The position numbers and the translations under genes are program-made. Source: an uncultured Flavobacteriaceae bacterium (GTDB lineage Bacteria > Bacteroidota > Bacteroidia > Flavobacteriales > Flavobacteriaceae). Taken from it: a stretch of 50,853 nt of DNA. Below the pieces are notes generated by a model, which had not been told where the DNA came from, made no database searches, and worked only from the letters and a program-made list of their open reading frames with translations. The first letter of the stretch is position 1. The number at the start of each line of letters is the position of its first letter. The DNA lies in the NCBI GenBank assembly GCA_947500385.1, contig CANMSA010000027.1:1-50853 (forward strand), read 5' to 3'. Below are positions 1 to 39,394 of this stretch, in pieces.

Positions 1-1939
1 CGCTCCCCTGCAACTGGTCGATGAACCAAAGACGCTCCTGTGAATAGGAAAGCGGTATACGGTCGGGGCGGTCGGCCTTCTGAATAGGTTGCTGTATTTC
101 CGAATTGAGCGTTGAAATGTACTCGGACAACTTTGCAACAGTAGCATGTTCGAAGAGATCTTTTAAACCAACCGTAATTCCAAACTCTTTGTATATGTGC
201 CCTACAACCCTGGTTGCCGAAATACTTTGCCCTCCCAGTTCGAAAAAACTATGATCAACTCCCACCTTTTCCAATTGAAGTACCTTGCCCCAAATGGCCG
301 CTAGCCGTTCTTCCTGTTCATCGCCGGGGGCTCGGTAGGCCTTCTGATCGTATAGTAATGCCTCGGGAGAGGGCAGCGAACGACGATCGATCTTCCCGTT
401 CAGGTTCTTGGGAAGTTCTGGCAGCCAAACATAGTACTGTGGGTGCATGTACGAGGGAAGGTGTTCCCCCACATGGTCTCGCAACAACGAATCCAAAATC
501 ACACTCCCTGATTCATAATAACAAACAAGTACCTTCTCTCCCAACGAGCGATCTAGGGCCAATACCACCAGCGCGCCTATATCATGGTACGAGCGAAGGC
601 AGTGTTCTACCTCTTGCAGTTCTACACGGTTCCCCCGGATCTTTACCTGACTGTCACGGCGCCCCACAAAACGCACCATACCATCGGAAGTATAACGCCC
701 CAGATCTCCCGTGCGATAGACTATGTCTTCAAAATCGTCGTGCAAAGGGTTCTGAATAAAATAGGACGCAGTAAGGTCTGGTGCACCGTAATATCCCTTG
801 CTGCGAAAGGGTGTTTTGATATAGAGTTCACCAATGGCCCCAGGGTTACATAGGGTGTCATTATGTAAAATAAGGATTTCGGTATTGCTAATGGGTACTC
901 CCAAAGGTATCACCGCCGTAGAATCTGAAAGATCTTGCGTATTTATGCGGTGAAAGAGTTTCGCCAAGGTCGTCTCCGAAGGGCCGTACAGGTTCACCAA
1001 TTGCGTAGCCTCTCCCATTAGAGATCGCCAACGCAATACATCGGCCCCGTAGAGCGCCTCCCCGGCCAAAAGTACATGTGACAGCGCGGGCAGTGCGCCC
1101 GTGGATGCCTCCATCGCCCCCGTAAGGCCTCGGAACAGCGTTGGGACGATATGTAAAAAGTTTACTTCTTTGTTGATCAACCAATTCAAAAGGTCAGGAG
1201 GCGAGGCTACAGTCGATCGATCGGGAATACATAGACAGCCTCCACAAAGCAATGGTACAAATATATCGCGCAGGCTCACATCGAAAGTCAGCGGGGCCAA
1301 TTGTCCCGTACGTACCTCTTTGCCAAGAGTGAACTCACCACACTCCCAATGGATAAAGTGACTCAATGATTTGTGCACCCCTTCTATAGCCTTTGGCGTA
1401 CCGGTACTACCGGAGGTGAAGAGCAGATAGGCGCTCTCATCTCCCGTAAGCTCGGGCAAGGGGGATGGCACAAGGGACGATACCTCCATGTTCGTAGTGC
1501 CGACACCATAGCGCCATGCTTCGCATACCCCTTTGGTATCAAACACAAGGATCAGGGCTTCAAGACCCTGTTCCGATAGGTGCGTGGAAAGACTGCTTAA
1601 ATGCTCCCTTAACGTGACCAATACTACCGGTTTGCCCAGGGTCAACTGGAGCCCTAAACGTGTTGCGGGGTGCGAGGGGTCCATCGGCATTGCGATACCG
1701 CCAGATTTCATAACCCCCAACAGGCATTCGATATATTCACGACTACTTGCCATATACAACCCTACCACATCACCGATCGAGATAAGACCCGACAACAAAC
1801 CACCCAAATGGTCGCTGCCCTCTATTAATGAACGATAGGTAAGGGTACCGTTTTGATCCGAAACACAGACGCTATTCCCGCTAAGGTTTTTTTGTCCGTC
1901 TATTATGTTCGATATTAGTCGCTTATTTGTCGTTTTCAT
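1..1939 (-). CDS. NRPS subunit, A-T-C..., 3' end outside window
   Basis: Nonribosomal peptide synthetase, about 646 residues visible; it runs off the left edge. The start is the ATG at 1937-1939 (MKTTNKRLISNIID). Residues 1 to about 500 are an adenylation domain with the A3 core TSGSTGTPK, A4 FDVSLRD, A5 NLYGPSETT, A7 YRTGDLGR and the A10 lysine in NLNGKIDRR. The carrier domain follows, with phosphopantetheine serine near residue 570 in FFELGGQSISATR. The last visible residues, IPLSYSQERLWFIDQL, are a C1 motif opening a condensation domain. That C1 is the textbook LCL/DCL form and differs from the YYPxSxAQ form in the other subunits. Threading on GrsA gives the code DVRHLALLAK. The substrate is unproven; see findings on side-chain activated acidic residues. 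It is the last gene of the operon seen here, after a 165-base gap. Whether a thioesterase follows cannot be seen. Confidence 0.95.
   Translation of the reverse strand, partial: MKTTNKRLISNIIDGQKNLSGNSVCVSDQNGTLTYRSLIEGSDHLGGLLSGLISIGDVVGLYMASSREYIECLLGVMKSGGIAMPMDPSHPATRLGLQLTLGKPVVLVTLREHLSSLSTHLSEQGLEALILVFDTKGVCEAWRYGVGTTNMEVSSLVPSPLPELTGDESAYLLFTSGSTGTPKAIEGVHKSLSHFIHWECGEFTLGKEVRTGQLAPLTFDVSLRDIFVPLLCGGCLCIPDRSTVASPPDLLNWLINKEVNFLHIVPTLFRGLTGAMEASTGALPALSHVLLAGEALYGADVLRWRSLMGEATQLVNLYGPSETTLAKLFHRINTQDLSDSTAVIPLGVPISNTEILILHNDTLCNPGAIGELYIKTPFRSKGYYGAPDLTASYFIQNPLHDDFEDIVYRTGDLGRYTSDGMVRFVGRRDSQVKIRGNRVELQEVEHCLRSYHDIGALVVLALDRSLGEKVLVCYYESGSVILDSLLRDHVGEHLPSYMHPQYYVWLPELPKNLNGKIDRRSLPSPEALLYDQKAYRAPGDEQEERLAAIWGKVLQLEKVGVDHSFFELGGQSISATRVVGHIYKEFGITVGLKDLFEHATVAKLSEYISTLNSEIQQPIQKADRPDRIPLSYSQERLWFIDQLQGS
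240..1930 (-). repeat. GC-rich A-T block, copy 1 of a duplicated NRPS segment
   Basis: This stretch is the paralogue of 9240-10945. The two copies read nearly alike at protein level and are alike over long runs at DNA level, for example at 1041-1075 and 10051-10080. A hand count of 1021-1080 gives 36 G or C in 60. The matching line of a more distant paralogue, 16621-16680, gives 24 in 60. Boundaries are estimates by eye. Confidence 0.7.
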
Positions 1940-2104
1940 AGCAATGTTCTCTTTCTTGGTATTTATAATTTCCTAAACCCTTTTTCCCGACAATTTTGGG
2001 GTATTTGCCAACATTTCAAATTACACCCCATGCTGTATGGTATTAGGAACCTATTTACTTTATTGGTAGAATGGCCTCCAGTTGTTTTTCACTGGTCAAA
2101 AGGT

Positions 2105-3757
2105 TCATATAGTCTCCGCAGGAACCCCTGTCCCCTCTCCATATTCTATTATTTTTTCTCCAAACAAACGTTCTGCATCAATTCCCTTTTCTATGCAGTA
2201 TGCGATGGTTTTATTGGATTCTATAATCGGTTTCGATTCTTCGGTATATTTGATAGAACTAATGTATTTAAGCCAAGGTTCCATCCCCATCGCGTATACA
2301 AATACCGTAGTAGGTTCAAAAATATCGATCAATGCCTTGCTCTCCTGAAAATCAGACCCCGCCAAACGTCGGGTTTGATCTTTATCCCTATCTAGTTTGT
2401 TAGGCATAATAGGGCCATACAACCAAGATAAAGGTGCTCCGTCACACTCCATTCCTAAAAAGACGATGTCTACCTTCCCATATACCTCGCTTACTCTTTC
2501 ATAAAGTCGTGGTTCAATATTGCATGAGTCCGCAGCAAAAATCATTTTGAAATTATCTTTAAACTGTACCATATGACAGATTTTGCTGCGAACATCCAAA
2601 TCGGAGTGTTCGCCTAAAAACGGAATACCGGAAATGGCACAATCTGCAAATTCAAGCGTCTCCATTTCGTCAATTTCAATAACACTTTCAAACCCTAATT
2701 TTTTAAACATTAATTTTAGACTAGGGTCTTGTAAACCTCCCCCATTACTCTTAGGTACAATAATGTTTTTAACTTTATGTCGTATGCGCAGTAAGGTCTC
2801 GAACAGCACATGATCCTGATGGTTATGTGTAATAAGTACATAATCAATTTCTTCGGGAAGGTCTTCGTAGGTGTATCGAGACAAATCAGATTCGTACCCG
2901 TAGCTAATTACCGGGTCTACCAAAATACTGGTATTCTTGGTTTCCACTAAAATACAGGCGTGACCAAAATAGCGGGTTAAAACCCCTTTCTTGTCATACT
3001 TTTCGTATCTCTTTGGCGCCTCTTTGGTAAACAAAGACCGGAAAAGCGGTTCTTGTTGGTCATTAACTTCAAAAAGAGTTTTTAACGCTCCGTAGGGCTT
3101 GGGGCTATTGGTGGTCTCGAACAATGTGTCTATCTTTTTACTTTTGAGGGGCAGGTTCAATCGGAGCACATCTGGTTCGGGAAGGCTTGGCGTACTCAAA
3201 ATAAAGGATCTGGAATCGTCGTCCCGAACTCTGAAGAGATTAACGGCCTGTAATTCTTCTTTATAGTATTTAGTTCTGTACAGCAATGGCTCTATAAACC
3301 TGTAAGACGGATTATTGTTTAAGTCATAATACAGTTCTACAAGCCCCCTTAGCGACTCGGGAACTTTCGGATACAGAGGTTCCAATGAATACCCTTTCGC
3401 TTCGTTTTCAAGAAGCTTATTCAATTCATCTAGGTGCTGGCTTAACTCCAGTAACTCTTCACAAGCAGCTTCTGTTTGCTCCTTCATTTTTTTTATTTCC
3501 TCCACCCTTTTTCCCCCATAATCAATAAAGGGACCTCCTAGCATTTTTGGATTTTTTATTGCAGCAGCATGAATCATTGGATTTTGAATATAGGACTCCA
3601 TGATACTTAGGTGCCTATTTTTAATATTCATCGCCGCTGTCGCCGGGCTCACTAAATGCGCCCAAGCATACCAATTATCGATAAGAGGCTCTATGGCGAC
3701 ATCAGAAGCGATGTAGACCAGATCAGAATCGTTTATTATTTCATTTCTACTACTCAT
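2105..3757 (-). CDS. CmlA-like metallo-beta-lactamase-fold oxygenase (putative diiron beta-hydroxylase)
   Basis: A 550-residue two-part protein. Residues 1 to about 245 are an N-terminal domain without an obvious motif. Residues from about 260 carry a metallo-beta-lactamase fold: RYFGHACILVET, then HNHQDH (H311, H313, D315, H316), then GEHSDLD (E383) and AADSCN (D410). Length, the large N-terminal domain and a Glu at the third ligand position fit CmlA, the diiron enzyme that beta-hydroxylates a carrier-bound amino acid in chloramphenicol synthesis. From memory, CmlA uses an HxHxDH motif plus E377 and D403, so the spacing is nearly the same. No histidine follows D410; MGMEPW (E493) sits where the last MBL ligand is expected. 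By context it likely oxidises a thioester-bound residue on the NRPS. A plain hydrolase of the same fold is the alternative. It starts 10 bases after the exporter gene. Confidence 0.7.
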   Translation of the reverse strand: MSSRNEIINDSDLVYIASDVAIEPLIDNWYAWAHLVSPATAAMNIKNRHLSIMESYIQNPMIHAAAIKNPKMLGGPFIDYGGKRVEEIKKMKEQTEAACEELLELSQHLDELNKLLENEAKGYSLEPLYPKVPESLRGLVELYYDLNNNPSYRFIEPLLYRTKYYKEELQAVNLFRVRDDDSRSFILSTPSLPEPDVLRLNLPLKSKKIDTLFETTNSPKPYGALKTLFEVNDQQEPLFRSLFTKEAPKRYEKYDKKGVLTRYFGHACILVETKNTSILVDPVISYGYESDLSRYTYEDLPEEIDYVLITHNHQDHVLFETLLRIRHKVKNIIVPKSNGGGLQDPSLKLMFKKLGFESVIEIDEMETLEFADCAISGIPFLGEHSDLDVRSKICHMVQFKDNFKMIFAADSCNIEPRLYERVSEVYGKVDIVFLGMECDGAPLSWLYGPIMPNKLDRDKDQTRRLAGSDFQESKALIDIFEPTTVFVYAMGMEPWLKYISSIKYTEESKPIIESNKTIAYCIEKGIDAERLFGEKIIEYGEGTGVPAETI

Positions 3758-3767
3758 TTTTATTTTT

Positions 3768-5504
3768 TTAGAAAGATTCTTGGATACTATTCGTTTTTAA
3801 AGGGGATGGTTGGCTACTGTTGGTACCAAGAGATGGTGCCGAAATTTCGGTTAGTTTTCCATATTCAAACCTCAGCAAACGGTCTGCGCATTCGAAGTAG
3901 GCATCGTCATGCGTAATTGCAATGATTGTCTTTCCCTTCTCTTTCAAATCAGGGAGTACCTTTGTATAAAACGTTCTCCGAAATTCGGGATCTTGTTCTG
4001 CCGCCCATTCGTCAAAAAACAGCAAATCTTCATCTTCTAGAAGTGCGTATATTAAGGCAATTCGTTTTTGCTGCCCCTTAGATAAGTCATGGGAAATTGA
4101 ATTGGTATCCATATTCAATCGAATTGTATCCCTCAATTCCATTCTTTCAAGAAGCGCAACAAACTCGTCATTATCCGAGTTTAGGTCATGGCCATCATAA
4201 TTTTCAGAAAACAAATGATGGTCGGTAAAAATACTGGACAGGCGATTTCTATACGCTTGCATCGCTTCAGGAGTAATCAGAAAATCGTTAAAATAAATGG
4301 CACCTGATTTAGGGCTTAAAAGTCCTGTAATCATATTCATAAAAGTTGTCTTACCGCTACCGTTACCGCCTGAGATAAAAATGACCTCTCCTTTATGAAA
4401 AGTAATATTTACAGGGTCTAAACGAAACGAAATTTCTTCTTTGAAAGGGTTTAAATAATGATATGAAATTGCCTCTAGGCGAAGACTCTCAAAACTTTCC
4501 AGAGGAAAAGTAATCGTTTTTTCGGCCTTCATTTCTATTAGAGAGTCCGCGATGTTTTGATTGAAAGAGTTTAAACGTTCCAAAGCAACCTTAAACCTCA
4601 AGAAACTGCTGATAAAGCTGGTCAAAAGTGCGATTGGCGCCATAACAAAAAGCACGGTTACTATAAAATTTGTGCGTACTTCCACAGGAAGTTGTATTAG
4701 CAAGGGCAACACAAAAAGTAAGACTCCGATGGCAAGGTAAAAAGAATAGTTTCCGGCCAACCTATTTCCCATGTCCCTTAGAAAGGCCCGAGTTCGTATT
4801 TGCTGATACTCTTCACGGTTCTTTACCAAGAAGTCAAAGAAAAGCGCGTTGCTTCTAGTTGTTTTCATTTTTACCTCGCGAAAGCCTTTCAACAAATCAT
4901 CAACATTTCGCATATAGGTATCATTGAGCATTCTAAAGGATCGAATATCTTGCTCTACTTTTTTATTTCGCTGAATATAGATGGTTAGGATCACCATAAG
5001 CAGGACTACCAATATCGTGGCGCCCATAACATCGATTAAAAAAAGGTAAACGATGCCCATTAATATCATCACTACTGCATTAAAACTATCGAGTATGATA
5101 CCGGGGGAAGCTTCTAAAACCGTGATATCTTCCAGCGCAGTTCTTACTTTTTCCTCTCCCAATCTTAAAAAAGATAGATACTCCGCCTGCCGTACCTTGT
5201 CCAACAAAGTCACGACCATTTCTTTTCCAAGACCAAAGGTCAGCTGTATCATATACGATTGAAAGAATAGGGAAGTGACAAAAGAGACGACGGTTAACAC
5301 TGTATAAAACAGCCAGTCATAGGCATCTAAAAAAGGGAGCGATTGTCCCAATGCCTTGGTATTTATAAGGTACAATAAACCAATTGCCCAAACCGCATTG
5401 GCCAATCCTAGCAAGCCCAATAGTGGAATGAACCATTTGGATTTGGACCGTAGCAAGCTACCAAAAGTGTACTTCTCTATTACAGAATTAGTTTGCATTT
5501 TCAT
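3768..5504 (-). CDS. Cyclic-peptide-type ABC exporter (fused membrane and ATPase domains)
   Basis: A 578-residue half-transporter with N-terminal membrane domain and C-terminal ATPase. Hydrophobic segments are clear at about residues 25-50, 60-90, 135-175 and 250-305. The nucleotide-binding domain has Walker A GGNGSGKTT near residue 381, signature LSKGQQKR near 477 and Walker B LLFFDEWAAEQDP near 498. The DEWAAEQDP form is typical of the SyrD/PvdE/YojI group, which exports or flips lipopeptides and siderophore precursors across the inner membrane. It lies inside the operon, 52 bases after the PhyH gene and 10 before the CmlA-like gene, so export of the cluster product is the natural role. The C terminus (residues about 560-578) is a Ser/Asn-rich tail. 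Confidence 0.9.
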   Translation of the reverse strand: MKMQTNSVIEKYTFGSLLRSKSKWFIPLLGLLGLANAVWAIGLLYLINTKALGQSLPFLDAYDWLFYTVLTVVSFVTSLFFQSYMIQLTFGLGKEMVVTLLDKVRQAEYLSFLRLGEEKVRTALEDITVLEASPGIILDSFNAVVMILMGIVYLFLIDVMGATILVVLLMVILTIYIQRNKKVEQDIRSFRMLNDTYMRNVDDLLKGFREVKMKTTRSNALFFDFLVKNREEYQQIRTRAFLRDMGNRLAGNYSFYLAIGVLLFVLPLLIQLPVEVRTNFIVTVLFVMAPIALLTSFISSFLRFKVALERLNSFNQNIADSLIEMKAEKTITFPLESFESLRLEAISYHYLNPFKEEISFRLDPVNITFHKGEVIFISGGNGSGKTTFMNMITGLLSPKSGAIYFNDFLITPEAMQAYRNRLSSIFTDHHLFSENYDGHDLNSDNDEFVALLERMELRDTIRLNMDTNSISHDLSKGQQKRIALIYALLEDEDLLFFDEWAAEQDPEFRRTFYTKVLPDLKEKGKTIIAITHDDAYFECADRLLRFEYGKLTEISAPSLGTNSSQPSPLKTNSIQESF

Positions 5505-5556
5505 AAGATCTCATCGAATATTAACCCAAAAGGGTTGCTACTTACTGCTAAATCAA

Positions 5557-6387
5557 CTAAGACTCTACCTTTTCAATTTTTTCTGCATTCGAACGTTTTA
5601 TCTCTTCTAAAAAGGCCTTGCATTGGCGTTGATGCTCTTCTATCGAAGCTACATTCACCCCAAGATTTAGGGGTTGATGGTGCTCGAAATTTTGAAAAAG
5701 GTCCTTTCCCTTCACCAAGAGTGTTTTGGGGCTCGCTCCATACTGTTTCACGGAAGGTGCTATGTAGCGTATTACAAAACCGACTCTAAGTTTATCAGAG
5801 GTATTGGGTTCGGATCCATGGATAAGTTTACTATGATGTACAGAAAACTCTCCTGGTTTTAGCACTACAGGAACACTATACCTCTCAAATCCAATCGATT
5901 TTATGTTTTGCTTTCTAGAAAGTTTATTATTGGTATCGCCGGTTTCCTCGTGTTCTAATTGCTCAAGGCTATGTGAGCAGGGTACAATTCTCATGGATCC
6001 ATTTTCTGAGTTACTATCAGTTAAAGCCACCCAAACGGAGGCTACTTTGTCTTCATCTGAAAGCGACCAATAGGTGCTATCTTGATGCCATCCTATATAA
6101 TCCGAAGTGCCGCCTTTTTTATAAAAAATCGAGGTCGCCCACACGAGCACATCTTCTCCTATAAGTTGCTTCACCACCTCTAAAATCCTGGTATCCGTAA
6201 CCAGTTCATAGGCCTTCTTAAAGGTTAGGTGCATTTGAGTAAGCTCTAAAGGCTCCGGATTAGCACCCAAGCCTTCCATCAGTTCTTTACAAAACGTCAA
6301 ATACTTTTTTCCTTCTTCCTGCGAAAAGGCACGGATTGGAAAAGCCGCGCCCAATAAGTCATATTCTCTTTTAATATTTTTCATCAT
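5557..6387 (-). CDS. PhyH-family Fe(II)/2-oxoglutarate dioxygenase
   Basis: A 276-residue phytanoyl-CoA dioxygenase-like protein. The iron triad reads H101-Q-D103 in GWHQDSTYW and H190 in LIHGSEPN; R201 in KLRVGF is placed to bind the 2-oxoglutarate carboxylate. Because the HxD aspartate is present, a hydroxylase is predicted rather than a SyrB2-type halogenase, in which that Asp is Ala or Gly. In NRPS clusters this family includes SyrP, which hydroxylates carrier-bound aspartate, so the same reaction is a reasonable guess. The 5' end overlaps the 3' end of the glycosyltransferase gene by 17 bases, indicating translational coupling. Start chosen at the first of two tandem Met codons; the exact Met is uncertain. 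Confidence 0.85.
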   Translation of the reverse strand: MMKNIKREYDLLGAAFPIRAFSQEEGKKYLTFCKELMEGLGANPEPLELTQMHLTFKKAYELVTDTRILEVVKQLIGEDVLVWATSIFYKKGGTSDYIGWHQDSTYWSLSDEDKVASVWVALTDSNSENGSMRIVPCSHSLEQLEHEETGDTNNKLSRKQNIKSIGFERYSVPVVLKPGEFSVHHSKLIHGSEPNTSDKLRVGFVIRYIAPSVKQYGASPKTLLVKGKDLFQNFEHHQPLNLGVNVASIEEHQRQCKAFLEEIKRSNAEKIEKVES

Positions 6388-7564
6388 CTTTTAAAATTTG
6401 TTTTTCTATTAACCTTGCTTCCAACACCTGCCATTTGTTAAGTATCGAATCAAGCGAGTTTAGTTTGAACCAGTTTCCCAGCAGGGCCAACAGTTCCGGA
6501 AAATTGGTATGTGCCCTCCTTGTCTCAATAATTGCCACCTCGGCCGGTTCAATCACATGTCTTTTTCCCTCACCATATGCATATACTGCCTCGTATTGCA
6601 TGGTACTTCCTTTCACAACATGAAAAGCATCTAGTCGCAAGTTCAAATACCGTTTCCAATAGGGCACTACTTCCCTTATCTCCTTATTAATCAGCTCAAG
6701 CAAGGTATTGTACATGACCTTCTCTGGCCGAAAGCTATCTGAAAAATAGTTGGTATAAAGACTTCTTTGGAGGCCATCCTCTACCAGTTTCACCACTCTT
6801 AATCCATCATTGTCGTACACCGTCGGTTTTGAAATCATCTTATTTTTTAAATGCTCATATGACGATTGGTACCGATGCTGCTTATCGGCTGCTAGGTATT
6901 TCTCGTATCTTTTATGCCGTTCTTGGGCATTGGCCTCATGATAAATCGCCAAGTTTACCAATCCCATTTCTTCAGGAGTAATTTCGAGAGGTATGAGTCT
7001 ACAATGCAAACGCCGCATATCAAAACTGTACCCTTCCCGATATCGATACATCCGGTGTCCAAATCGCTGGCGAACGGTTTCTTCACCATCAAGGTCGACC
7101 ACTTGAAATGCATATCCCTTTAGGTGTGGGTAGTTATTTTTCAAGCTATCCACATATAACCTAAAACGGGGATCTAGTTCCTCGTCCGCATCTACACAAA
7201 TCACCCATTCAGGTGAATATTTGGCCGCTGCCATATACAATTCGTGACGATTGTACGCATCATGCCATTCGCTCAAAGACTTTCTTTTTTTCTTTAAAAC
7301 TGCCCGTACCAGTGGGTGTTTTTTGGCAATAGCTACACTGTTATCGGTACTCCCATCGTCCAAAACCAAGACTCCGTTCACAATACCTTCCAACGAATCT
7401 AAAGTTGCTGCCAAATGACCTTCTTTGTTCCAAACTGGAATCAACGCCAAGAAATCGCATTGTAATGGGCTTTTCTCCTTTTCCCATAACGTAGTGCCTC
7501 TGGCAGGAACATGTTCCTTCGCTACAATCGGTTTAAAGTCTACTCTCGTTTCTATCGTTTGCAT
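6371..7564 (-). CDS. Family 2 glycosyltransferase
   Basis: A 397-residue GT-A fold enzyme. After about 35 variable residues comes FLALIPVWNKEGHL, then the nucleotide-binding DDGSTD (69-74) and the metal-binding CVDADEEL (D125-A-D127). No membrane segment is evident, so it should be cytosolic. In this position it probably adds a sugar to the lipopeptide or its precursor; donor and acceptor cannot be read from sequence. It follows the third complete A-T-C gene after 119 bases and overlaps the next gene, so it belongs to the operon. A cell-surface polysaccharide role is less likely because no other sugar-pathway gene is nearby. Confidence 0.85.
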   Translation of the reverse strand: MQTIETRVDFKPIVAKEHVPARGTTLWEKEKSPLQCDFLALIPVWNKEGHLAATLDSLEGIVNGVLVLDDGSTDNSVAIAKKHPLVRAVLKKKRKSLSEWHDAYNRHELYMAAAKYSPEWVICVDADEELDPRFRLYVDSLKNNYPHLKGYAFQVVDLDGEETVRQRFGHRMYRYREGYSFDMRRLHCRLIPLEITPEEMGLVNLAIYHEANAQERHKRYEKYLAADKQHRYQSSYEHLKNKMISKPTVYDNDGLRVVKLVEDGLQRSLYTNYFSDSFRPEKVMYNTLLELINKEIREVVPYWKRYLNLRLDAFHVVKGSTMQYEAVYAYGEGKRHVIEPAEVAIIETRRAHTNFPELLALLGNWFKLNSLDSILNKWQVLEARLIEKQILKDDEKY

Positions 7565-7683
7565 ATCAATATCATATCATTAAGAGTTCCGTTTCCAAAG
7601 AATCCGGGTCGCCCATTATTTTGATGCTCCATTCGGCGCAAGAATTTTATACGGACTTTTCTTGTTTTCATATCACTTTCTCT

Positions 7684-10600: not shown

Positions 10601-10953
10601 AAGCTCCCCATGTCTTCTTTTCGGGTAATTACGACCGAGGGACTTCCCACTGAAAGTTGGAAACCTATACGGGTGACAGGATGGGAGGGATCTATGGGCA
10701 TAGCCATTCCACCAGACTTCATAACGCCCAAAAGGCATTGGATATATTCCCGGCTGGCGCCCATATAAAGACCCACTACATCACCAATGGAAACCAGTCC
10801 GGACAAAATTTCGCCCAAAAAATCACTTCCGTCTACTAAGGAATTATAGGTAAGTATACCGGCCCCGTCCGATACGCAAACCTTATCCCCTTTAGGCGAT
10901 TTATGACCGTCTATTATGTTCGTTACTACTCTCTTGTTTACTTTCGCTGCCAT
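7684..10953 (-). CDS. NRPS subunit A-T-C (third complete module)
   Basis: A 1089-residue single-module synthetase in the order A-T-C. The A domain (1 to about 500) has TSGSTGTPK, FDVSLRD, NLYGPSETT, YRTGDLGR and NLNGKIDRR. The carrier serine is near residue 569 (FFELGGHSLTATR). The condensation domain (about 620-1060) opens with YYPVSNAQHRIWIF and has an intact HHIVGDGWS near 763. Code by GrsA threading is DVRHLALLAK. The C domain would pass the growing chain to the residue on the next subunit, presumably the protein at 1-1939. It ends in ISEDF, a tail shared with other subunits. A mosaic is visible: the A-T half is GC-rich (38 of 60 at 10021-10080) and the C half AT-rich (19 of 60 at 8281-8340). 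The upstream gene ends 9 bases before it. Confidence 0.95.
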   Translation of the reverse strand: MAAKVNKRVVTNIIDGHKSPKGDKVCVSDGAGILTYNSLVDGSDFLGEILSGLVSIGDVVGLYMGASREYIQCLLGVMKSGGMAMPIDPSHPVTRIGFQLSVGSPSVVITRKEDMGSLEKHLWEHGEETLVLVLDLEGLWEAWQYGGVPMKLDFASLVSSSLPVLTGDESAYLLFTSGSTGTPKAIEGVHKSLSHFVHWESGEFSLGGEVRAGQLAPLTFDVSLRDIFVPLLCGGTLCIPDRSTVSAPKGLLDWLISEQVNLLHIVPTLFRGLTGAIESSPGQLPGLSHVLLAGEALYGADVLRWQSVMGDRTKLVNLYGPSETTLAKLFHRIDEQDLTDPTAVVPLGNPISNTGVLVLHNEKLCKTNKIGEIYIKTPFRSKGYYGAPGLTASHFIQNPLHSDFEDIVYRTGDLGRYGPDGAVRFIGRRDSQVKIRGNRVELQEVEHCLRSQRDIGELVVLALDRSLGEKVLACYYESAVAIPDSLLRDHVGERLPSYMHPQYYIWMTELPKNLNGKIDRRSLPFPEALLYDQKAYSAPVDEQEELLAAIWGSALQLEKVGTTHRFFELGGHSLTATRVVSAIYKEMGIQLSLKEFFQYDTVRTLAQYLHGKKTATYAEIKEAPQKPYYPVSNAQHRIWIFEEMNPGMTAYNMPGAVRLNGKVDQDILEQSFQLLIAKHDSLRTVFVPQNGHPYQQILPADANQFQLEKHDLRNSSSAEVEAEKLVQKLFVEPFNLGELFLLRVTLIQLAEAEFILAYVLHHIVGDGWSMKVLINDVINFYKQLAGKMPLQNTVLPIQHKDYTHWLSQRLAAPEMQAHRQYWVAQLSDELQLPALPFDHPKELDKQFVGKEYEFPIDGNTSRDIKILLGQEGLSAFMFFSSIFKLLLYHYCGNDKIVLGTPVAGRDYPGLENQIGLFLNYVVLRSTINRKNNFKEFVQQIKQVALDAFEHQIYPYDLLVEELNTQNNSLENPFYNVLIVMNNPELNIADSDLNELKKHFDITPFKVEKNTTKLDLSLFVTDEKDFRCMIEYNSNVFEKATIHKMEKDFLKIMKWSLTKNGDSIDNLMWKLHGKSKNEITGRATLISEDF
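9240..10945 (-). repeat. GC-rich A-T block, copy 2 of a duplicated NRPS segment
   Basis: This is the paralogue of 240-1930, covering the adenylation and carrier domains but not the condensation domain. GC drops sharply near 9240, where the carrier domain gives way to the linker: 30 of 60 at 9241-9300 against 23 of 60 at 9121-9180. The pattern suggests duplication or gene conversion of the A-T unit alone. Boundaries are by eye. Confidence 0.7.
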
Positions 10954-10962
10954 ATGCTTGCC

Positions 10963-13900
10963 TTAAAAATCTTCATCAAATACTTGGGTGAGCGCATCTT
11001 CTCTTCCTTTGGCCATTTCCAGTTCTTCTGGATCATAAAAAATACTCGCCAATGATTCTATCGAAGGGTTTTCCGTTCTTATTAATTCTTTTACCAATCG
11101 CTTAAAATCCTCTCCAATTTTTTCAACCGCGACACTATGGAACACCTCTTGTCGATATTCCAATTCTAAATGGAGTGTGTCTGACTGGCTAAAGAAAAAT
11201 GATAAATCGAGCTTACTGGTATCATGCTCTGTTGGAAAGGGTTCAATAGTAAGGTCATCAATTTCGTAGGCAAATGATGTCTGCTTAAAAAATGCCTCCG
11301 TGGTCTTACCGGTTTCCTCCGTATTAAGTACCAGCAACACATCATAAAGCGACTTTTCCTTTTTCTCACCAACCAAATCCGAATCTTCTGCCAGCCGTTC
11401 AAGTGGGTAATTTTGATGTTCGTGCGCTTCTAAAATAGTTTGCTGTACCTGAGCTAAAAAGCTTCTGAATTGCATTTCCCTGTCAAACATATTCCGTAGC
11501 ACTACTACATTTAAAAAAAGACCGATTTGATCTTCAAGTTGTGTATGTTCTCTACCGGAAATAGGGGTACCTATACTTATATCTTCGTTCCCGGAATAGG
11601 CATATGATAAGGTTTTCACTAGGGCAGTCAATAAGGAGAAAAAAGTTACCTGTTGCTCCCTGGCATAGTGTTCAAGTGCCTTGTAATCAAGCAAATCAAT
11701 TTGCGTTTTGTGTATCGCTCCTACCGTTTGTAAAACCTCGCTTGTTCTTGGTTTTTCAAAAGGAAATTTCAGCTTGGGACTAGCAGGTATTAATTTTTCT
11801 TTCCAATAGTTTTGGGCAGCCCTCATATCCATGTCATTCCGGGTCATATTCTTCCAATACGCGTAATCCTTATATTGGATGCTAAGTTCCGGCAGTGCTG
11901 TTTTCAGACCTTCATCCTTCGATTTGTAAAGCGTTAGCATCCGTTCCACGATCAACCGCATTGACCATCCATCGCTAATTAAATGGTGCGCATTTAACAC
12001 AAAAACATAATTTTGGTGAGTCTCTATCAAGGTTCCCCTAAACAAGGGTCCTTTGATGAGATCAAAAGGAACGGCTATCACCTCGGCAACCCTATCTTTC
12101 AAATCCTTGAGTTCATAGGTGCTTTTCGTTAAATCGATGTGCTCAAAGCTCACCGGCAGATGACTCAAAGCTTCTACTTTTTGCATAGGTACTTCGTCTT
12201 CTAAAACAATCCGGGTTCTCAAAATCTCATAATGCTCGACCAATTGTTCAAAACAATTTTTCAATTTTCCAATATTTAGATCTCCCTCTAGATACATCGC
12301 CATCGGCATATGGTATGCAGTACTCTCCGGGTTTAATTGATGCATTAACCAAAATTGATGTTGTGCTGCGGAAAGCGGATAATACGCCTGTTCGGGCGCC
12401 TTATTAATTTTGGCATACCCGGAGCTGTTTTTCGCGTCCAATAATTGGGCCAACGCACGAACGGTCGTGTGTTGAAAAAGTTCTTTTAAGCTTACTTGTT
12501 TTCCAAAATCCTTGTAGATATATGCGATCACCTGCGTCGCATTTAAACTATGGCCGCCCAATTGAAAAAAATCATTTGTGGCCCCAACTTTTTGCAGCCC
12601 AAGCACCTGCTTCCAAATTGATGCCAACATGGTTTCCGTTGTTCCCAAAGGGGGTACATACTCCATTTGCTCATAAAGCAATGCTTCTGGTCTGGGTAGT
12701 GCTTTCCGATTTACTTTACCATTTAGATTGGTTGGAAACTCTTCTAGTCGCACCATATGCCCAGGAAGCATATAAACCGGTAATACATTTTTAAGATACT
12801 CTAAAAGGGCATGCTCGTCCAGTGCCATTTCAACCCCTATATAAGCAACCAGCACTAGTTCTTTGGTACTCTTCTCCCAAGGAACGACCACTGCCTGTTT
12901 GATTCCCGGATACCCCATAATCTCACGTTCGACTTCGGAACACTCAACACGATTACCACGGATTTTGACTTGATTGTCAGTTCTACCGGCAAAAGCAACA
13001 GTTCCGTCTGCCAGATATTTACCCAAGTCCCCAGTTTTATAAACGATATCTTTAAATTCTGTATGCAAAGGGTTTTGCACAAATTTTTTGGCTGTTAAAT
13101 CCGGGTTTTTAAAATAACCGTTGGAGCGAAAGGGTGTTTTAATCAAAATTTCCCCCAGTTCATCAATACCGCATAGTTGGTTTTCCTTTACCACTAATAC
13201 CGCTGTATTTGAAATAGGGATTCCTAAGGGAATAATTTCTCCGTCATCAAAAGGAGTATCTTCTATCTTAAAAAACAATTTGGCCAAAGTCGTTTCAGAA
13301 GGGCCATATAGATTTACCAATTCTGTATTGGCGCCAATCGTAGCTTTCCATTTTTGTACGTCCTTACCGTAGAGCGCCTCTCCCGCCAACAAAACGTACT
13401 CTAAATTCTGTAAGCGGTTTGGGTTACCTTGCGAGGCGACCTGTTCCGTTAATGACCGTAACAAGGACGGCACGGTATGCATCAAGTTTATCTTCGACTC
13501 CTCTAACCATCCCAGTAGGGCACCGACCGACTTTTTCGTGTTTCCTGGAGGAATACACAGTGTTCCTCCAAGAAACAATGGCAAAAAGATATCACGAAGG
13601 CTTACGTCAAATGACAGGGGCGCCAATTGGCTCACCCGTACTTTTTGATTTAGTCCAAAAGTGGCTCCTTCCCAATGAATAAAGTGGCTGAGCCCCTGAT
13701 GTACCCCCTCGACCGCCTTGGGAACCCCCGTAGAGCCAGATGTGTACATCAAATAGGCACTTGATTCGCCTAGTATCTCGGGAAGCGATTTTTCTTTCTC
13801 AATGCTTATTGGCATATACTTATTTGCAGTGCCTGCTACGGATTCAATTTGAAAAAACTTCCAACGCGATTCATCGACAATCACAATCTCGGGAGATTCC

Positions 13901-14289
13901 TCCGCTTCCACTAGTACTTTTAAAAGTCCTGCCAACTTCTCTTTTGTAGTAATACATATGGTCGGCCGAGCTTGTTTTAGCTGGTTTGCCAGCCTTCCTT
14001 GGGGATGAGAAAGTTCCATAGGCATGCAAATACCGCCCGCCTTGAATATTGCCAACATAGCAACTACGTAGGCCGTACTGCTTGGCAAATAAGTACCTAT
14101 TACCTCTTGCCCATGTGTTCCAATAGCATTTATGCCATTCGCCAGCCTATTTGAGTATGTAGAAAGCTGCCGATAGGTGATACTACCGTTTGCACTTTCA
14201 ATCGCAATGTTCTCAGATCTATTTTCATCAATGATCGTATGAATCACTTTTTTATTCGGTATTTGGGGAGTCCTTTCCATATGCATCAT
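10963..14289 (-). CDS. NRPS subunit A-T-C (second complete module)
   Basis: A 1108-residue A-T-C synthetase. A domain motifs: YTSGSTGVPK, FDVSLRD, NLYGPSETT, YKTGDLGK and NLNGKVNRK. The carrier serine is near residue 580 (FFQLGGHSLNATQ). The C domain opens with YYPLSAAQHQFWLM and has HHLISDGWS near 770, so it should be active. The code is again DVRHLALLAK. The tail reads VFDEDF. Its start codon overlaps the stop of the preceding gene by one base (TAATG at 14287-14291), giving tight coupling; an alternative ATG three codons in (MERTPQIP) is possible. No epimerisation or methylation domain is present. The A domain is clearly homologous to, but not a recent copy of, those at 1-1939 and 7684-10953. 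Confidence 0.95.
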   Translation of the reverse strand: MMHMERTPQIPNKKVIHTIIDENRSENIAIESANGSITYRQLSTYSNRLANGINAIGTHGQEVIGTYLPSSTAYVVAMLAIFKAGGICMPMELSHPQGRLANQLKQARPTICITTKEKLAGLLKVLVEAEESPEIVIVDESRWKFFQIESVAGTANKYMPISIEKEKSLPEILGESSAYLMYTSGSTGVPKAVEGVHQGLSHFIHWEGATFGLNQKVRVSQLAPLSFDVSLRDIFLPLFLGGTLCIPPGNTKKSVGALLGWLEESKINLMHTVPSLLRSLTEQVASQGNPNRLQNLEYVLLAGEALYGKDVQKWKATIGANTELVNLYGPSETTLAKLFFKIEDTPFDDGEIIPLGIPISNTAVLVVKENQLCGIDELGEILIKTPFRSNGYFKNPDLTAKKFVQNPLHTEFKDIVYKTGDLGKYLADGTVAFAGRTDNQVKIRGNRVECSEVEREIMGYPGIKQAVVVPWEKSTKELVLVAYIGVEMALDEHALLEYLKNVLPVYMLPGHMVRLEEFPTNLNGKVNRKALPRPEALLYEQMEYVPPLGTTETMLASIWKQVLGLQKVGATNDFFQLGGHSLNATQVIAYIYKDFGKQVSLKELFQHTTVRALAQLLDAKNSSGYAKINKAPEQAYYPLSAAQHQFWLMHQLNPESTAYHMPMAMYLEGDLNIGKLKNCFEQLVEHYEILRTRIVLEDEVPMQKVEALSHLPVSFEHIDLTKSTYELKDLKDRVAEVIAVPFDLIKGPLFRGTLIETHQNYVFVLNAHHLISDGWSMRLIVERMLTLYKSKDEGLKTALPELSIQYKDYAYWKNMTRNDMDMRAAQNYWKEKLIPASPKLKFPFEKPRTSEVLQTVGAIHKTQIDLLDYKALEHYAREQQVTFFSLLTALVKTLSYAYSGNEDISIGTPISGREHTQLEDQIGLFLNVVVLRNMFDREMQFRSFLAQVQQTILEAHEHQNYPLERLAEDSDLVGEKKEKSLYDVLLVLNTEETGKTTEAFFKQTSFAYEIDDLTIEPFPTEHDTSKLDLSFFFSQSDTLHLELEYRQEVFHSVAVEKIGEDFKRLVKELIRTENPSIESLASIFYDPEELEMAKGREDALTQVFDEDF

Positions 14290-17200
14290 TAAAAGTCATT
14301 ATCAAAGCTTTCTAGTGCCGCTTTCTGAAATCGTTGTTGTTGTTCGAGCGCTTTTGGAGCCATGAGCGCATTCTTTATTTGTGCCAACGTGTACTCCGGA
14401 AACGCTACTACCAAGGATACCAAATCCTTAAAATCGGCAGCAATGGATTCCATCGCAGCAGTACTGAACAAATCGGTTCTATACTCTAAGTTCATACCAA
14501 TATCGGCGGTATCTTCAAAGAAGAAAGAAAGGTCTAGTTTACTTGAAAAGTGAGGTGATACATAAGGTTCTGTTTGAAGCGAATCTTCTCGCCCTTCCGC
14601 CACTGTTTGAAAACTATCAAGTAATAATTCTTGTGTATTCAACACTACCAATACGTCATACAACGGATTTTTTTCACCTTGTAAGTCTTTGCCCAAATCT
14701 TCCACTAATTTATCGTAAGGATAATCCTGATGTTCGTAGGCCTCTAGCACCGTGTTTTTAACCTGCCCCAAGAACTTGGAAAATGATTGTGCTTTTAAAA
14801 GTGTATCGCGCAAGACCACCACATTTAAATACAATCCTATTTGGTTTTCCAATTGAGGGTGGTCTCTTCCTAGTATGGGGGTACCTACACTTATAGTTTC
14901 AGCACCATCATATTTAAAAAGCAAGGTCTTTACAAGGGCTATCAATGTTGAAAACAAGGTGACCCCTGTTTTTTGACTGAGGGAGCGCAGCGCTGCGGAA
15001 CTTTCCTGACCTAGCTTAAAACGAGCCAAGCTCCCTTCAAAACTCCTTATGGTAGTTGGTTGCTTGTCAACGGGTAGTTTCAAGGGATGTACATCGCTAC
15101 TTAATTTATCTGTCCAATAGTCTTTAAGGCGGGTGTCCGAGGCAAATTTATTCAGATGCCAATTTGCATAGTCTTTGTATTGAATTGGTAAGGAAGGAAG
15201 TTTCTTTTGAACAAAACCGTCACTGTTTTCATAGTAATGGAACAGTTCCTTCACAAAAACTTTCACCGACCAACCATCGCTTATGATATGATGCAGGTTA
15301 ACCAATAACACATGTTCCTGCGTTGAGAGTTTTACCAACTGCACCCTAAAAAGAGGCGCTTTGGATAGGTCAAAAGAAATCGTGGCCTCATTTGACGCAA
15401 TTTCCTCTAGCGCTTTTTCCTTGTCTGGTTTGGCTGATATGTCGATGGTATTCAAAGCTATTTTGAGCGTGTCGGAACTTGCGACTTCTTGCATGGGAAC
15501 CCCATTTAGTAAGGTAAAAGAGGTTCTTAGAATTTCATGGCGCTCCATCAGCTGATACAAACCGCTTTCCAAAGCGTGTTCGTTTAACTTTCCCTTTAGT
15601 CGCATACCACCGGCCATATGGTATGCCGATGCACTGTTCGTTAGCTGATCTATAATCCAGAATTGTTTTTGCGCATGTGTCAGCGGATAATAAGGCGCCA
15701 TTTTAACCTTGGGAATTGCAGTTAGCTCCTCGTTTTTCTTTGCGGCTATCAATTTTGCCAATGAGAGGATGGTAGCGTGTTCAAAAAAATCTTTAAGGCT
15801 TAGTTGTTTCCCGGTAAGCTCATAAATTTTCGTAACGATTCTGGTCGCGGTAAGGCTGTGTCCCCCTAGTTGAAAAAAGGTATGGTTAACTCCTACTTTG
15901 CTAAGACCTAACACTTCTTTCCAAACCTCGGCCAATGCTTTCTCCAAAGTGCTGGTAGGTGCAACATAGTCCAACGTTTCATACAACATTTCTTCCGGGC
16001 TTGGGAGTTGTTTTCGATCTACTTTACCATTGAGATTTACAGGAATGGTATCCATTGCTACATAATAGGCAGGGCACATATAGGTGGGTAGGCTTTCAGA
16101 TAAAAAAGATCGCATACCCGCTTCATCTACCCCTTCGGTTTTCTGGAAATAGCAGACCAATGCTTTTTCATTCCCTGGTCTGTTCAAGGCCTGGATAACG
16201 ACTTCTCCGATTCCTTTATAGCCGCGTATTGTTTCCTCTACCTCGGAAAGTTCTACCCTATTTCCCCTTATCTTTATCTGGTTGTCTTTTCGACCTACAA
16301 AAAGGAGCTCTCGATGCGAGTTAAATTTGCCTAGATCCCCTGTTTTATATACGATGTCCACATACTCATCATGCAAAGGGTTTTGAACAAATTTTTCAGC
16401 CGTTAATTCACCGTTTTTAAAGTACCCTTTACTTCTAAAGGGAGTCTTGATATAGATTTCCCCTATTTCATCTACTTCACATAGATCGCCTTCGTGAATG
16501 ATCATCGCGGCGGTATTGGAAATAGGGTTTCCCAAAGGAATTACTGAATTCTTCTCCATGGGAAGGTCTTTTACCCTGTAAAAAAGCTTTGCCAAGGTTG
16601 TCTCCGAGGGACCATATAGATTAATCAATTCGGTTTTTTTCCCATTGGCGTTATACCAGCCCGCAACATCGCTACCATAAAGGGCTTCCCCTGCCAAGAA
16701 AATAGTTTTCAAGTAGTTGAACCTTCCATGTTTGGTGACCATTTTGGTCAACAACCTAAATACGGTCGGTACCGTATGTATGTGTGTTATTTCATGCTTT
16801 TGTAACCAATGGTAGAGCTTTTCAGGAGTTGCCTTAGTGGCCTTATCCGGAATGAACAGGGTACCACCAGAAAACAATGGCAACAAGATATCGCGCAAGC
16901 TCACATCAAATGACACCGGAGCCAATTGACTCACTTTTGCTGAAGTTTCTAGTTTAAATTCTTTGTGCTGCCAATGGATAAAGTGACTTAACCCTTTTTG
17001 AACACCCTCTATCGCCTTTGGAACGCCTGTTGACCCTGAGGTATACATTAGGTACGCACTATCGTCTCCATCATTTTGTGAAAGTACCGGTTCAAGTTTA
17101 TCAATTACAGTTTCCAGCACTTTTTCGTTGTTGCCATCTATCAACCGTATTGCGGCGCATTCTTCTCCTATTAGTAGAATTTTTGGGGCATTTTCCGCTC

Positions 17201-17573
17201 CTTGGGCGACCAATTTCCTTGCGCTGTCTAAATGGGAATCATTCGTTATCAATACCTTGGGAGTTGCTTGCCCCAGTTGTTGCAACAGCCTTTTGTGCGG
17301 ATGCCCTATCTCCAACGGCATATGAATAGCGGCTGCCTTGAGGTTTCCGAGCAGCGAAGCTATATAACCTATACAGGATGGTAAATAAGTCGCAACCACA
17401 TCTCCTTTTACGATGCCTAATTGTATTAAGCTATGGGCAATTTGATTTGAAAACTGAAAAAGTTCTTCGTAGGTACTCTTACCGTCCTCCGTGACCACTG
17501 CGTGCTTGGGCCCGTGAACCGAACACTGAAGATCTATCACCGTGTGTATTACTTTTTTATCTACTGTTGCCAT
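14289..17573 (-). CDS. NRPS subunit A-T-C (first complete module)
   Basis: A 1094-residue A-T-C synthetase and the first amino-acid-activating protein after the lipid-forming megasynthase. A domain: YTSGSTGVPK, FDVSLRD, NLYGPSETT, YKTGDLGK, NLNGKVDRK. The carrier serine is near residue 569 (FFQLGGHSLTATR). The C domain opens with YYPLTHAQKQFWII and has HHIISDGWS near 765. The code is DVRHFALLAK, differing from the other three only by Phe for Leu at position 299. The acyl chain should be joined to its amino acid by the C domain that ends the megasynthase. The tail is FDNDF. The gene starts 19 bases after the luciferase-like gene and shares one base with the next. Confidence 0.95.
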   Translation of the reverse strand: MATVDKKVIHTVIDLQCSVHGPKHAVVTEDGKSTYEELFQFSNQIAHSLIQLGIVKGDVVATYLPSCIGYIASLLGNLKAAAIHMPLEIGHPHKRLLQQLGQATPKVLITNDSHLDSARKLVAQGAENAPKILLIGEECAAIRLIDGNNEKVLETVIDKLEPVLSQNDGDDSAYLMYTSGSTGVPKAIEGVQKGLSHFIHWQHKEFKLETSAKVSQLAPVSFDVSLRDILLPLFSGGTLFIPDKATKATPEKLYHWLQKHEITHIHTVPTVFRLLTKMVTKHGRFNYLKTIFLAGEALYGSDVAGWYNANGKKTELINLYGPSETTLAKLFYRVKDLPMEKNSVIPLGNPISNTAAMIIHEGDLCEVDEIGEIYIKTPFRSKGYFKNGELTAEKFVQNPLHDEYVDIVYKTGDLGKFNSHRELLFVGRKDNQIKIRGNRVELSEVEETIRGYKGIGEVVIQALNRPGNEKALVCYFQKTEGVDEAGMRSFLSESLPTYMCPAYYVAMDTIPVNLNGKVDRKQLPSPEEMLYETLDYVAPTSTLEKALAEVWKEVLGLSKVGVNHTFFQLGGHSLTATRIVTKIYELTGKQLSLKDFFEHATILSLAKLIAAKKNEELTAIPKVKMAPYYPLTHAQKQFWIIDQLTNSASAYHMAGGMRLKGKLNEHALESGLYQLMERHEILRTSFTLLNGVPMQEVASSDTLKIALNTIDISAKPDKEKALEEIASNEATISFDLSKAPLFRVQLVKLSTQEHVLLVNLHHIISDGWSVKVFVKELFHYYENSDGFVQKKLPSLPIQYKDYANWHLNKFASDTRLKDYWTDKLSSDVHPLKLPVDKQPTTIRSFEGSLARFKLGQESSAALRSLSQKTGVTLFSTLIALVKTLLFKYDGAETISVGTPILGRDHPQLENQIGLYLNVVVLRDTLLKAQSFSKFLGQVKNTVLEAYEHQDYPYDKLVEDLGKDLQGEKNPLYDVLVVLNTQELLLDSFQTVAEGREDSLQTEPYVSPHFSSKLDLSFFFEDTADIGMNLEYRTDLFSTAAMESIAADFKDLVSLVVAFPEYTLAQIKNALMAPKALEQQQRFQKAALESFDNDF

Positions 17574-39378: not shown

Positions 39379-39394
39379 TTTTATCTTTTTTGAA

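Follow-up and report, generated by a model that had tools for sequence, protein, structure and literature searches.

The cluster and its four A domains

The window analysed here, a stretch of 50,853 nucleotides, is contig C27 of the 6.03 Mb genome (123 contigs) of an uncultured Flavobacteriaceae bacterium (GenBank assembly GCA_947500385.1), and its base 1 is base 1 of the contig. It carries a nonribosomal peptide synthetase (NRPS) cluster with four adenylation (A) domains in positions 1 to 17,573, all on the minus strand (2-1939, 7684-10953, 10963-14289, and 14289-17573). They belong to modules built of an A, a thiolation (T), and a condensation (C) domain, named X1 to X4:

14289..17573, minus strand: module X1, A-T-C, code DVRHFALLAK (A core 16266-17066; FDVSLRDI 16887-16910)
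10963..14289, minus strand: module X2, A-T-C, code DVRHLALLAK (A core 12961-13773; FDVSLRDI 13588-13611)
7684..10953, minus strand: module X3, A-T-C, code DVRHLALLAK (A core 9649-10461; FDVSLRDI 10273-10296)
2..1939, minus strand: module X4, A-T and the first residues of the C domain, code DVRHLALLAK (A core 638-1450; FDVSLRDI 1262-1285)

Since the window starts at the first base of the contig, X4, the last NRPS, is truncated, its gene being cut at base 2.

A GrsA segment was used as the alignment reference, and GrsA's own code was recovered correctly. The four domains read DVRHLALLAK, DVRHLALLAK, DVRHLALL-K, and DVRHFALL-K; residue 331 is Ala in all of them when they are aligned to their own family, and the two gaps are an alignment slip. 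The preliminary description of this DNA had reported one code for the four domains, and this was confirmed as DVRH(L/F)ALLAK. The sharing of this code is beyond chance. All four modules have the marks of NRPS A domains (PF00501 with A motifs, D235, and K517, followed by a PCP), and Arg239 and His278 accompany D235 in each. An AlphaFold2 model predicts an ordinary A-domain fold only. Elsewhere in the genome, which has 57 PF00501 matches in total, the Arg239/His278 (R/H) pair occurs in 2 of the 27 A- or FAAL-type segments among the matches listed, both on contig C16, where a further lipopeptide cluster lies. In this cluster the genes for an Asp/Glu-type racemase and a TauD dioxygenase stand between a FAAL-PKS-C protein and a pair of A-first R/H modules with the codes DARHLSLMV and DARHLSLMI; it is also cut at its contig start (L051, 1-15457).

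The other genes of the cluster in C27 are as follows:

21612..35735, minus strand: loading protein with FAAL-ACP, two polyketide synthase (PKS) modules (KS-AT-DH-KR-ACP), and a C-terminal C domain (Pfam and NCBIfam domains)
19728..21593, minus strand: AsnB-type glutamine-dependent amidotransferase (TIGR01536, 480.6 bits against a cut-off of 267.1; N-terminal Cys2 present)
17593..19734, minus strand: MupA-type luciferase-like monooxygenase behind a degenerate A-domain N-terminus (TIGR04020, 456 bits)
6371..7564, minus strand: family 2 glycosyltransferase (PF00535; orthologue at 78%)
5557..6387, minus strand: PhyH-type Fe/2-oxoglutarate dioxygenase with WHQDS (PF05721; orthologue at 90%)
3768..5504, minus strand: peptide-export type ABC transporter, permease-ATPase (PF00005; TIGR01194, 264.9 bits, below the cut-off of 286.2)
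2105..3757, minus strand: CmlA-type diiron beta-hydroxylase (PF18456, 304.8 bits; THNHQDH)

The FAAL-ACP, the two PKS modules, and the C domain upstream of X1 agree with the lipid cap that had been proposed. The loading protein ends in KELKEDF and has an orthologue at 75% in a relative (G001:C48). Judged by sequence, the AsnB protein is a putative glutamine-hydrolysing asparagine synthase (TIGR01536 over the cut-off, Cys2), and the CmlA-type protein is a predicted diiron hydroxylase (CmlA_N domain, HxHxDH metal motif). The monooxygenase has a weak PF00501 match at residues 21-120 and ends in VMSDEF; such a monooxygenase with a degenerate A-domain N-terminus adjoins the AsnB and R/H genes in the window and is also found near R/H genes in Chitinophaga and Flavitalea. 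The WHQDS of the PhyH protein is the HxD of hydroxylases, unlike the HxG/A of halogenases. Genes for a SusD-like protein and a TonB-dependent receptor precede the cluster in the same orientation (38038-42373), and this pair is a possible uptake partner.

An orthologous cluster is present in a metagenome-assembled genome of an uncultured Flavobacteriaceae bacterium of the same genus (L067; G001), with identities of 75% for the PKS, 95% for AsnB, 80% for the luciferase-like monooxygenase, 78-79% for three modules, 90% for PhyH, and 88% for CmlA. The last NRPS of the relative has 5984 residues and reads R/H, DLTKIGEIG, DASTIAFVG, DAFWLGGTF, and DLFWLGGTF. We take these codes as Asn-like for DLTKIGEIG, probably aromatic for DASTIAFVG, and Val-like for the last two; two methyltransferase domains go with the Val-like modules, and a separate C-domain protein is also encoded. 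The homo-oligomer that had been expected is therefore limited to a block of four, because four other modules follow the four R/H modules in the relative, for which a pure homo-oligomer was rejected.

The A domains of X4 and X3 (224-1450 and 9235-10461) share 76% of their DNA over 1.2 kb and 71% of their protein sequence, and the A domain of X4 is merely 52% identical in protein to its orthologue in the relative. The X4 A domain was probably overwritten by that of X3 through gene conversion. Window bases 1-55 are identical to bases 81-135 of contig C43 of the same genome, at the start of a C domain, and these 55 shared bases probably explain the assembly break. As a candidate for the missing part of X4, contig C43 is doubtful: the 58 bases ahead of the shared stretch are different, and its identity to the protein of the relative is just 43.5%.

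The R/H family and its gene neighbourhood

Scanning genome contigs with the four A cores yielded 73 loci, drawn from the best 80 of 107 matches, and the observation made on four domains is real and larger than first seen. The loci lie in Bacteroidota, Desulfobacterota, Pseudomonadota, SAR324, Nitrospirota, Planctomycetota, and others, so the trait is not peculiar to Bacteroidota. A search of 1660 plasmid records found none above 60% identity, and three of the six plasmid records fetched hold R/H domains (L061, L062, and L064; an Azospirillum and two Streptomyces). FDVSLRDI was found, in four copies each, in 2 of 60 genomes of a kinship search, the own genome included. Among the papers listed in open-access literature searches, with most subscription journals outside their scope, no description of such an A-domain family was found.

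In a tree, all 100 family rows lay on one side of a single branch (SH-aLRT 100) and 50 other A domains, picked at random, on the other, a split that is partly selected because the loci were found by similarity. Outside the window, 91 of 96 family members have both Arg239 and His278, against none of the 124 other A domains of the fetched loci, with 6 low-scoring fragments and L063, L065, and L066 omitted from both counts. The scan motif FDVSLRDI itself includes Arg239; the pair is present in 55 of the 60 members without this motif. By position, the 96 members have Asp235 (96), Arg239 (93; Lys in L098 and L128, Gln in the second domain of L087), and His278 (94; Cys in L126 and L129). Residue 236 is Val in 50, Ala in 45, and Leu in one, and the Val/Ala difference takes three changes on the tree. 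Arg239 with Asp278 occurs in 1 of the 124 other A domains, so Arg239 alone is not exclusive to the family; L107 (DARDVGVVD) has Arg239 without His278. Two A domains of an Agrobacterium plasmid (L066, at 12024 and 21685) read DPRSLCQMS, with Ser278; they are outside the family and the count of 124 and are another kind of pocket with Arg239. Runs of two or three R/H modules recur in L111, L113, L115, L117, L120, and L074, and Chitinophaga is among them, with the DARH type next to racemase, AsnB, and TauD genes.

R/H A domains are nearly always the first domain of their protein. The C domain that serves them stands at the end of the preceding protein for 66 of 69 family A domains, against 1 of 110 other A domains, leaving aside 35 C domains for which no acceptor was found and 10 that precede another C domain. 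The preceding proteins mostly end in a short acidic tail with Phe or Tyr, which in the window is present as follows:

21615..21629, minus strand: acidic-Phe C-terminal tail LKEDF of the loading protein (from the sequence)
17596-17610, 14292-14306, 10966-10980, and 7687-7701, minus strand: like tails of the other window proteins (from the sequence)

Such a tail (e.g., ISEDF; type I-S/D-E-D-F) is carried by 54 of the 66 proteins that precede R/H A-first proteins, against 2 of 60 other NRPS proteins and 13 of 240 other proteins in the loci, both control classes omitting the last protein of each locus; the pattern was fixed after the tails were seen, and a cruder first pattern matched 47 of 66. 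Five of the 13 tailed non-NRPS proteins are the monooxygenases of the window, L067, L100, L103, and L104, and another is a 578-residue protein of the window, which has the same length as its ABC protein. The acidic-Phe tail may be a docking tail and possibly a new motif.

By motif, an epimerization (E) domain follows 0 of 75 R/H A-T modules and 6 of 59 other A domains (Fisher 0.006). None of the C domains after R/H modules lies inside the DCL set, made up of those C domains that follow E domains in the genome of the window. A guess from the YYPLS motif that the window C domains are of the DCL type was dropped; the four make up a separate clade (96/94) that lies toward LCL, and the relative's C domain downstream of X4 falls among ordinary LCL domains. 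This placement is in line with L-configured residues at X. A single clade of C domains with R/H acceptors across phyla was not found, with 20 changes on the tree, although these C domains are still more clustered than in shuffles (mean 55). In L109, L110, L128, and L137, a C-like domain without HHxxxDG comes after the R/H module, and a further C match is found downstream.

Neighbouring genes were surveyed in 29 genomes, all chosen for bearing R/H loci, with the genome of L118 left out. Family A-domain matches of at least 226 bits (the next match having 190) were grouped within 30 kb, which gave 38 R/H clusters. Within 10 kb, a PF01177 racemase was found at 18 clusters, AsnB at 23, and either at 33, against none of the 45 other NRPS clusters, taken from the non-R/H matches among those listed (Fisher 3e-18, which overstates independence because the clusters share descent). 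At the locus level, with L061 omitted and the mixed locus L074 set apart, racemases were found in 17 of the 30 loci with A236 only and in none of the 46 V236/A331 loci, and AsnB in 9 and 23 of them, respectively. For 16 of 54 V236 domains the gene immediately upstream encodes AsnB; AsnB stands together with a racemase and A236 domains in L081, L100, L103, L113, L115, L117, and L120. L136, a V236/A331 locus that has 10 kb or more before the match but no AsnB there, is flanked by an AsnB gene about 10 kb off in the opposite direction, outside the locus.

Each of the ten racemases scanned passes TIGR00035 (asp_race), whereas a glutamate racemase cut-off is reached by none. On the cysteate-racemase model they score 103.6-188.7 bits (cut-off 190), nine of the ten higher than on TIGR00035. 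A pair of Cys, which we take to be the catalytic positions, is conserved in 12 of 12 aligned racemases. The R/H-associated AsnB copies, 36 including that of the window, form one clade, set apart (SH-aLRT 99) from 19 others encoded in these genomes, a membership partly by choice, as the copies were taken above a similarity score to the window AsnB. Cys2 is kept in all 55 proteins (36/36 and 19/19), and the genome of the window has two further AsnB over the cut-off.

Probable activation of aspartate and the alternatives

It is fairly probable that the four window A domains activate the beta-carboxylate of aspartate, a substrate and a linkage that we infer from the pocket, the architecture, and the gene neighbourhood. 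In such a pocket Asp235 and Lys517 (GrsA numbering) would have their usual roles, and Arg239 and His278 at its far end would hold the alpha-carboxylate of Asp. The FAAL/PKS part would first make the acyl chain; the C domain that ends each protein would then join the chain to the amine of Asp on the next, separate A-T-C protein, with the acidic-Phe tail probably docking consecutive proteins. The resulting block would be acyl-(beta-Asp)4 with four free alpha-carboxylates, followed by other residues. The V236/A331 pocket of the window type probably takes L-Asp, and the A236 pocket, often with Val or Ile at 331 and often near an Asp-type racemase, probably takes D-Asp. The free alpha-carboxylates are probably amidated by AsnB, which would give isoasparagine residues. 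N-acetylglutaminylglutamine amidotransferase is known to amidate a peptide alpha-carboxylate. The window AsnB scores 361 bits on the model of that enzyme (TIGR03104), below its cut-off of 570, but passes the cut-off of the plain asparagine synthase model TIGR01536.

Activation of the side chain of an acidic residue, as the preliminary description had proposed, is the best reading of the adjacency of racemase and AsnB, the lack of E domains in the R/H modules, and the separate DLTK code. D-residues supplied by a free racemase, without an E domain, would be expected if the beta-carboxylate is activated, since the stereocentre then does not adjoin the thioester. A DLTK-type code, presumably for Asn or Asp, occurs in some of the same clusters, and for this reason the R/H code is hardly that of alpha-linked Asn or Asp; ordinary Asn/Asp loading was thus set aside as the plain reading.

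The proposed pocket may resemble those of microcystin synthesis. The microcystin codes, taken as DARHVGIFVK for D-MeAsp (McyB) and DPRHSGVVGK for D-Glu (McyE), would have D235, R239, H278, and K517 in common with the R/H domains, and the racemase-linked DARHLALLVK would differ from the McyB code by changes to similar residues only. Text searches for the two codes found no paper giving them, and the text of a 2024 A-domain review contains neither 'McyB', 'McyE', nor 'side chain carboxyl'. A dedicated Asp-type racemase in the cluster, as in microcystin synthesis, is found in the A236 sister type and on C16; in contrast, the window type has V236/A331 and an AsnB instead of a racemase. The R/H modules also differ from the microcystin system in being split A-first proteins, up to four in a row. 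In microcystin, D-MeAsp and D-Glu are iso-linked and the racemase McyF is encoded in the cluster, according to the available text of PMC6950048; activation of the omega-linked residues was 'still unknown' in the text seen of a 2011 review (PMC3252866).

Activation of Asp or 3-methyl-Asp at the beta-carboxylate is described for VinN, BolO, and AfcQ, which in this and in the Arg proposed for the alpha-carboxylate are like the reading given for the window, as far as the available texts go. In the VinN/BolO type (vicenistatin, bolagladin), Asp230 is proposed for the alpha-amino group and Ser299/Arg331 for the alpha-carboxyl group (PMC7756342). AfcQ of the AFC-BC11 system repeatedly loads L-Asp through the side chain, an Arg again being proposed to hold the alpha-carboxylate, and an oligomer is made by repeated loading with decarboxylation to beta-Ala, capped through a FAAL (PMC12186527). 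These enzymes are free-standing, load free carrier proteins, and work with pyridoxal phosphate (PLP) decarboxylases, whereas each window unit has its own A-T-C module; the three complete members are A-T-C, as is the cut X4 as far as it is kept. No such PLP decarboxylase was found among the 24 window open reading frames scanned with Pfam. A locus of Chitinophaga eiseniae (L105) has R/H domains and presumably Val- and Pro-like codes, and is at most a candidate for the chitinopeptin cluster. The chitinopeptins of C. eiseniae and C. flava are Bacteroidota lipopeptides for which a CmlA-like function, as in the window, was proposed for the formation of beta-OH-Asp, -Phe, and -Ile; the available text of PMC9248904 reports no racemase in trans and mentions no iso-linkage.

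Other assignments of the pocket were weighed. There is a minor but real chance that the R/H domains activate the alpha-carboxylate of Asp or hydroxylated Asp while Arg239 and His278 hold the side-chain carboxylate, giving an alpha-linked peptide on which AsnB later makes side-chain carboxamides. A positive pocket residue is usual for alpha-linked acidic residues, and AsnB normally amidates the beta-carboxylate of Asp, both of which suit this assignment. However, the ordinary DLTK code presumably already loads Asn or Asp in some of the same clusters, and D-residues would need E and DCL domains, although E domains follow none of the 75 R/H modules. The beta-OH-Asp of the chitinopeptins and the CmlA-like function of their clusters also speak for alpha activation, as far as the text of PMC9248904 goes. 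It is rather unlikely that AsnB makes free isoasparagine (the alpha-amide of Asp) and that this is the true substrate of the V236/A331 type, activated at the beta-carboxylate. The position of AsnB directly upstream of many V236 domains, its own clade, and the absence of a racemase from the V236/A331 type would fit, but the Arg/His pair, apt for a carboxylate, is identical in the racemase-linked type, and AsnB is also found beside A236 domains in the seven racemase-holding loci.

Glu linked through its gamma-carboxylate seems improbable. PF01177 racemases include glutamate racemases, but none of the ten passes a glutamate racemase cut-off and all pass TIGR00035; the pocket, lined by Leu at positions 322 and 330 and by either Leu or Phe at 299, also looks smaller than the McyE code for Glu. 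In favour of Glu, the D-Glu of microcystin is iso-linked too, according to the available text of PMC6950048. Of the two residues considered earlier, beta-Asp and gamma-Glu, Asp thus appears to fit better than Glu because of the bulky Leu lining and the TIGR00035-type racemases. Least credible of all is another anion, such as cysteic acid held by its sulfonate and alpha-activated. The scores on the cysteate-racemase model, under its cut-off but for nine of the ten racemases above those on TIGR00035, would suit it, but a sulfonate could not be amidated by AsnB, and nothing among the 24 scanned window open reading frames suggests cysteate synthesis.

Several points weigh against beta-carboxylate activation of Asp. 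The Arg239/His278 pair would serve just as well to bind the side-chain carboxylate if an acidic residue were activated at its alpha-carboxylate, and geometry alone is not decisive. CmlA-type chemistry acts at the beta position relative to the thioester, which in a thioester of iso-Asp would be the alpha carbon. The absence of VinN among the structure rows listed excludes nothing. Six C domains after R/H modules (L109, L110, L124, L127, L128, and L137; four of them without HHxxxDG) sit near the DCL set on long branches. The window holds no racemase, and the three of its genome lie on C4, C7, and C16. The association counts are not independent events, the clusters being related by descent; the genomes were picked for R/H loci, and the controls come only from the matches listed. 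Neither gene is found within 10 kb of 5 of the 38 R/H clusters. AsnB is absent from 23 of the 46 V236/A331 loci, nine of which hold less than 3.2 kb before the match; 11 hold at least 10 kb before it, so the AsnB link is not universal within the reach of the loci. Cys2 is no mark of the AsnB clade, since the 19 other AsnB keep it as well.

Significance of the R/H family

More tentatively, the monophyletic clade of split A-T-C modules may be a 'beta-aspartate cassette' spread through many phyla, with its docking tail, its own racemase, and its own AsnB. This broader proposal is possible, though doubtful as a whole. In such a cassette a pocket switch between V236/A331 and A236 with Val or Ile at 331 would set L or D, and AsnB would amidate the alpha-carboxylates left exposed. 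In that case the window would specify a lipid-capped beta-peptide tetramer of isoasparagine within a larger peptide; we know of no described lipopeptide with an isoasparagine beta-peptide backbone.

The R/H family offers many domains for testing how side-chain linkage is chosen, and these differ naturally at position 239 and in their likely chirality. Some come from cultured bacteria, among them Chitinophaga rupis, C. japonensis, Fulvivirga marina, and Magnetospirillum molischianum. The acidic-Phe tail may be a portable docking tail for module engineering. The family would aid product prediction for unassigned clusters and would point to beta-peptide lipopeptides.

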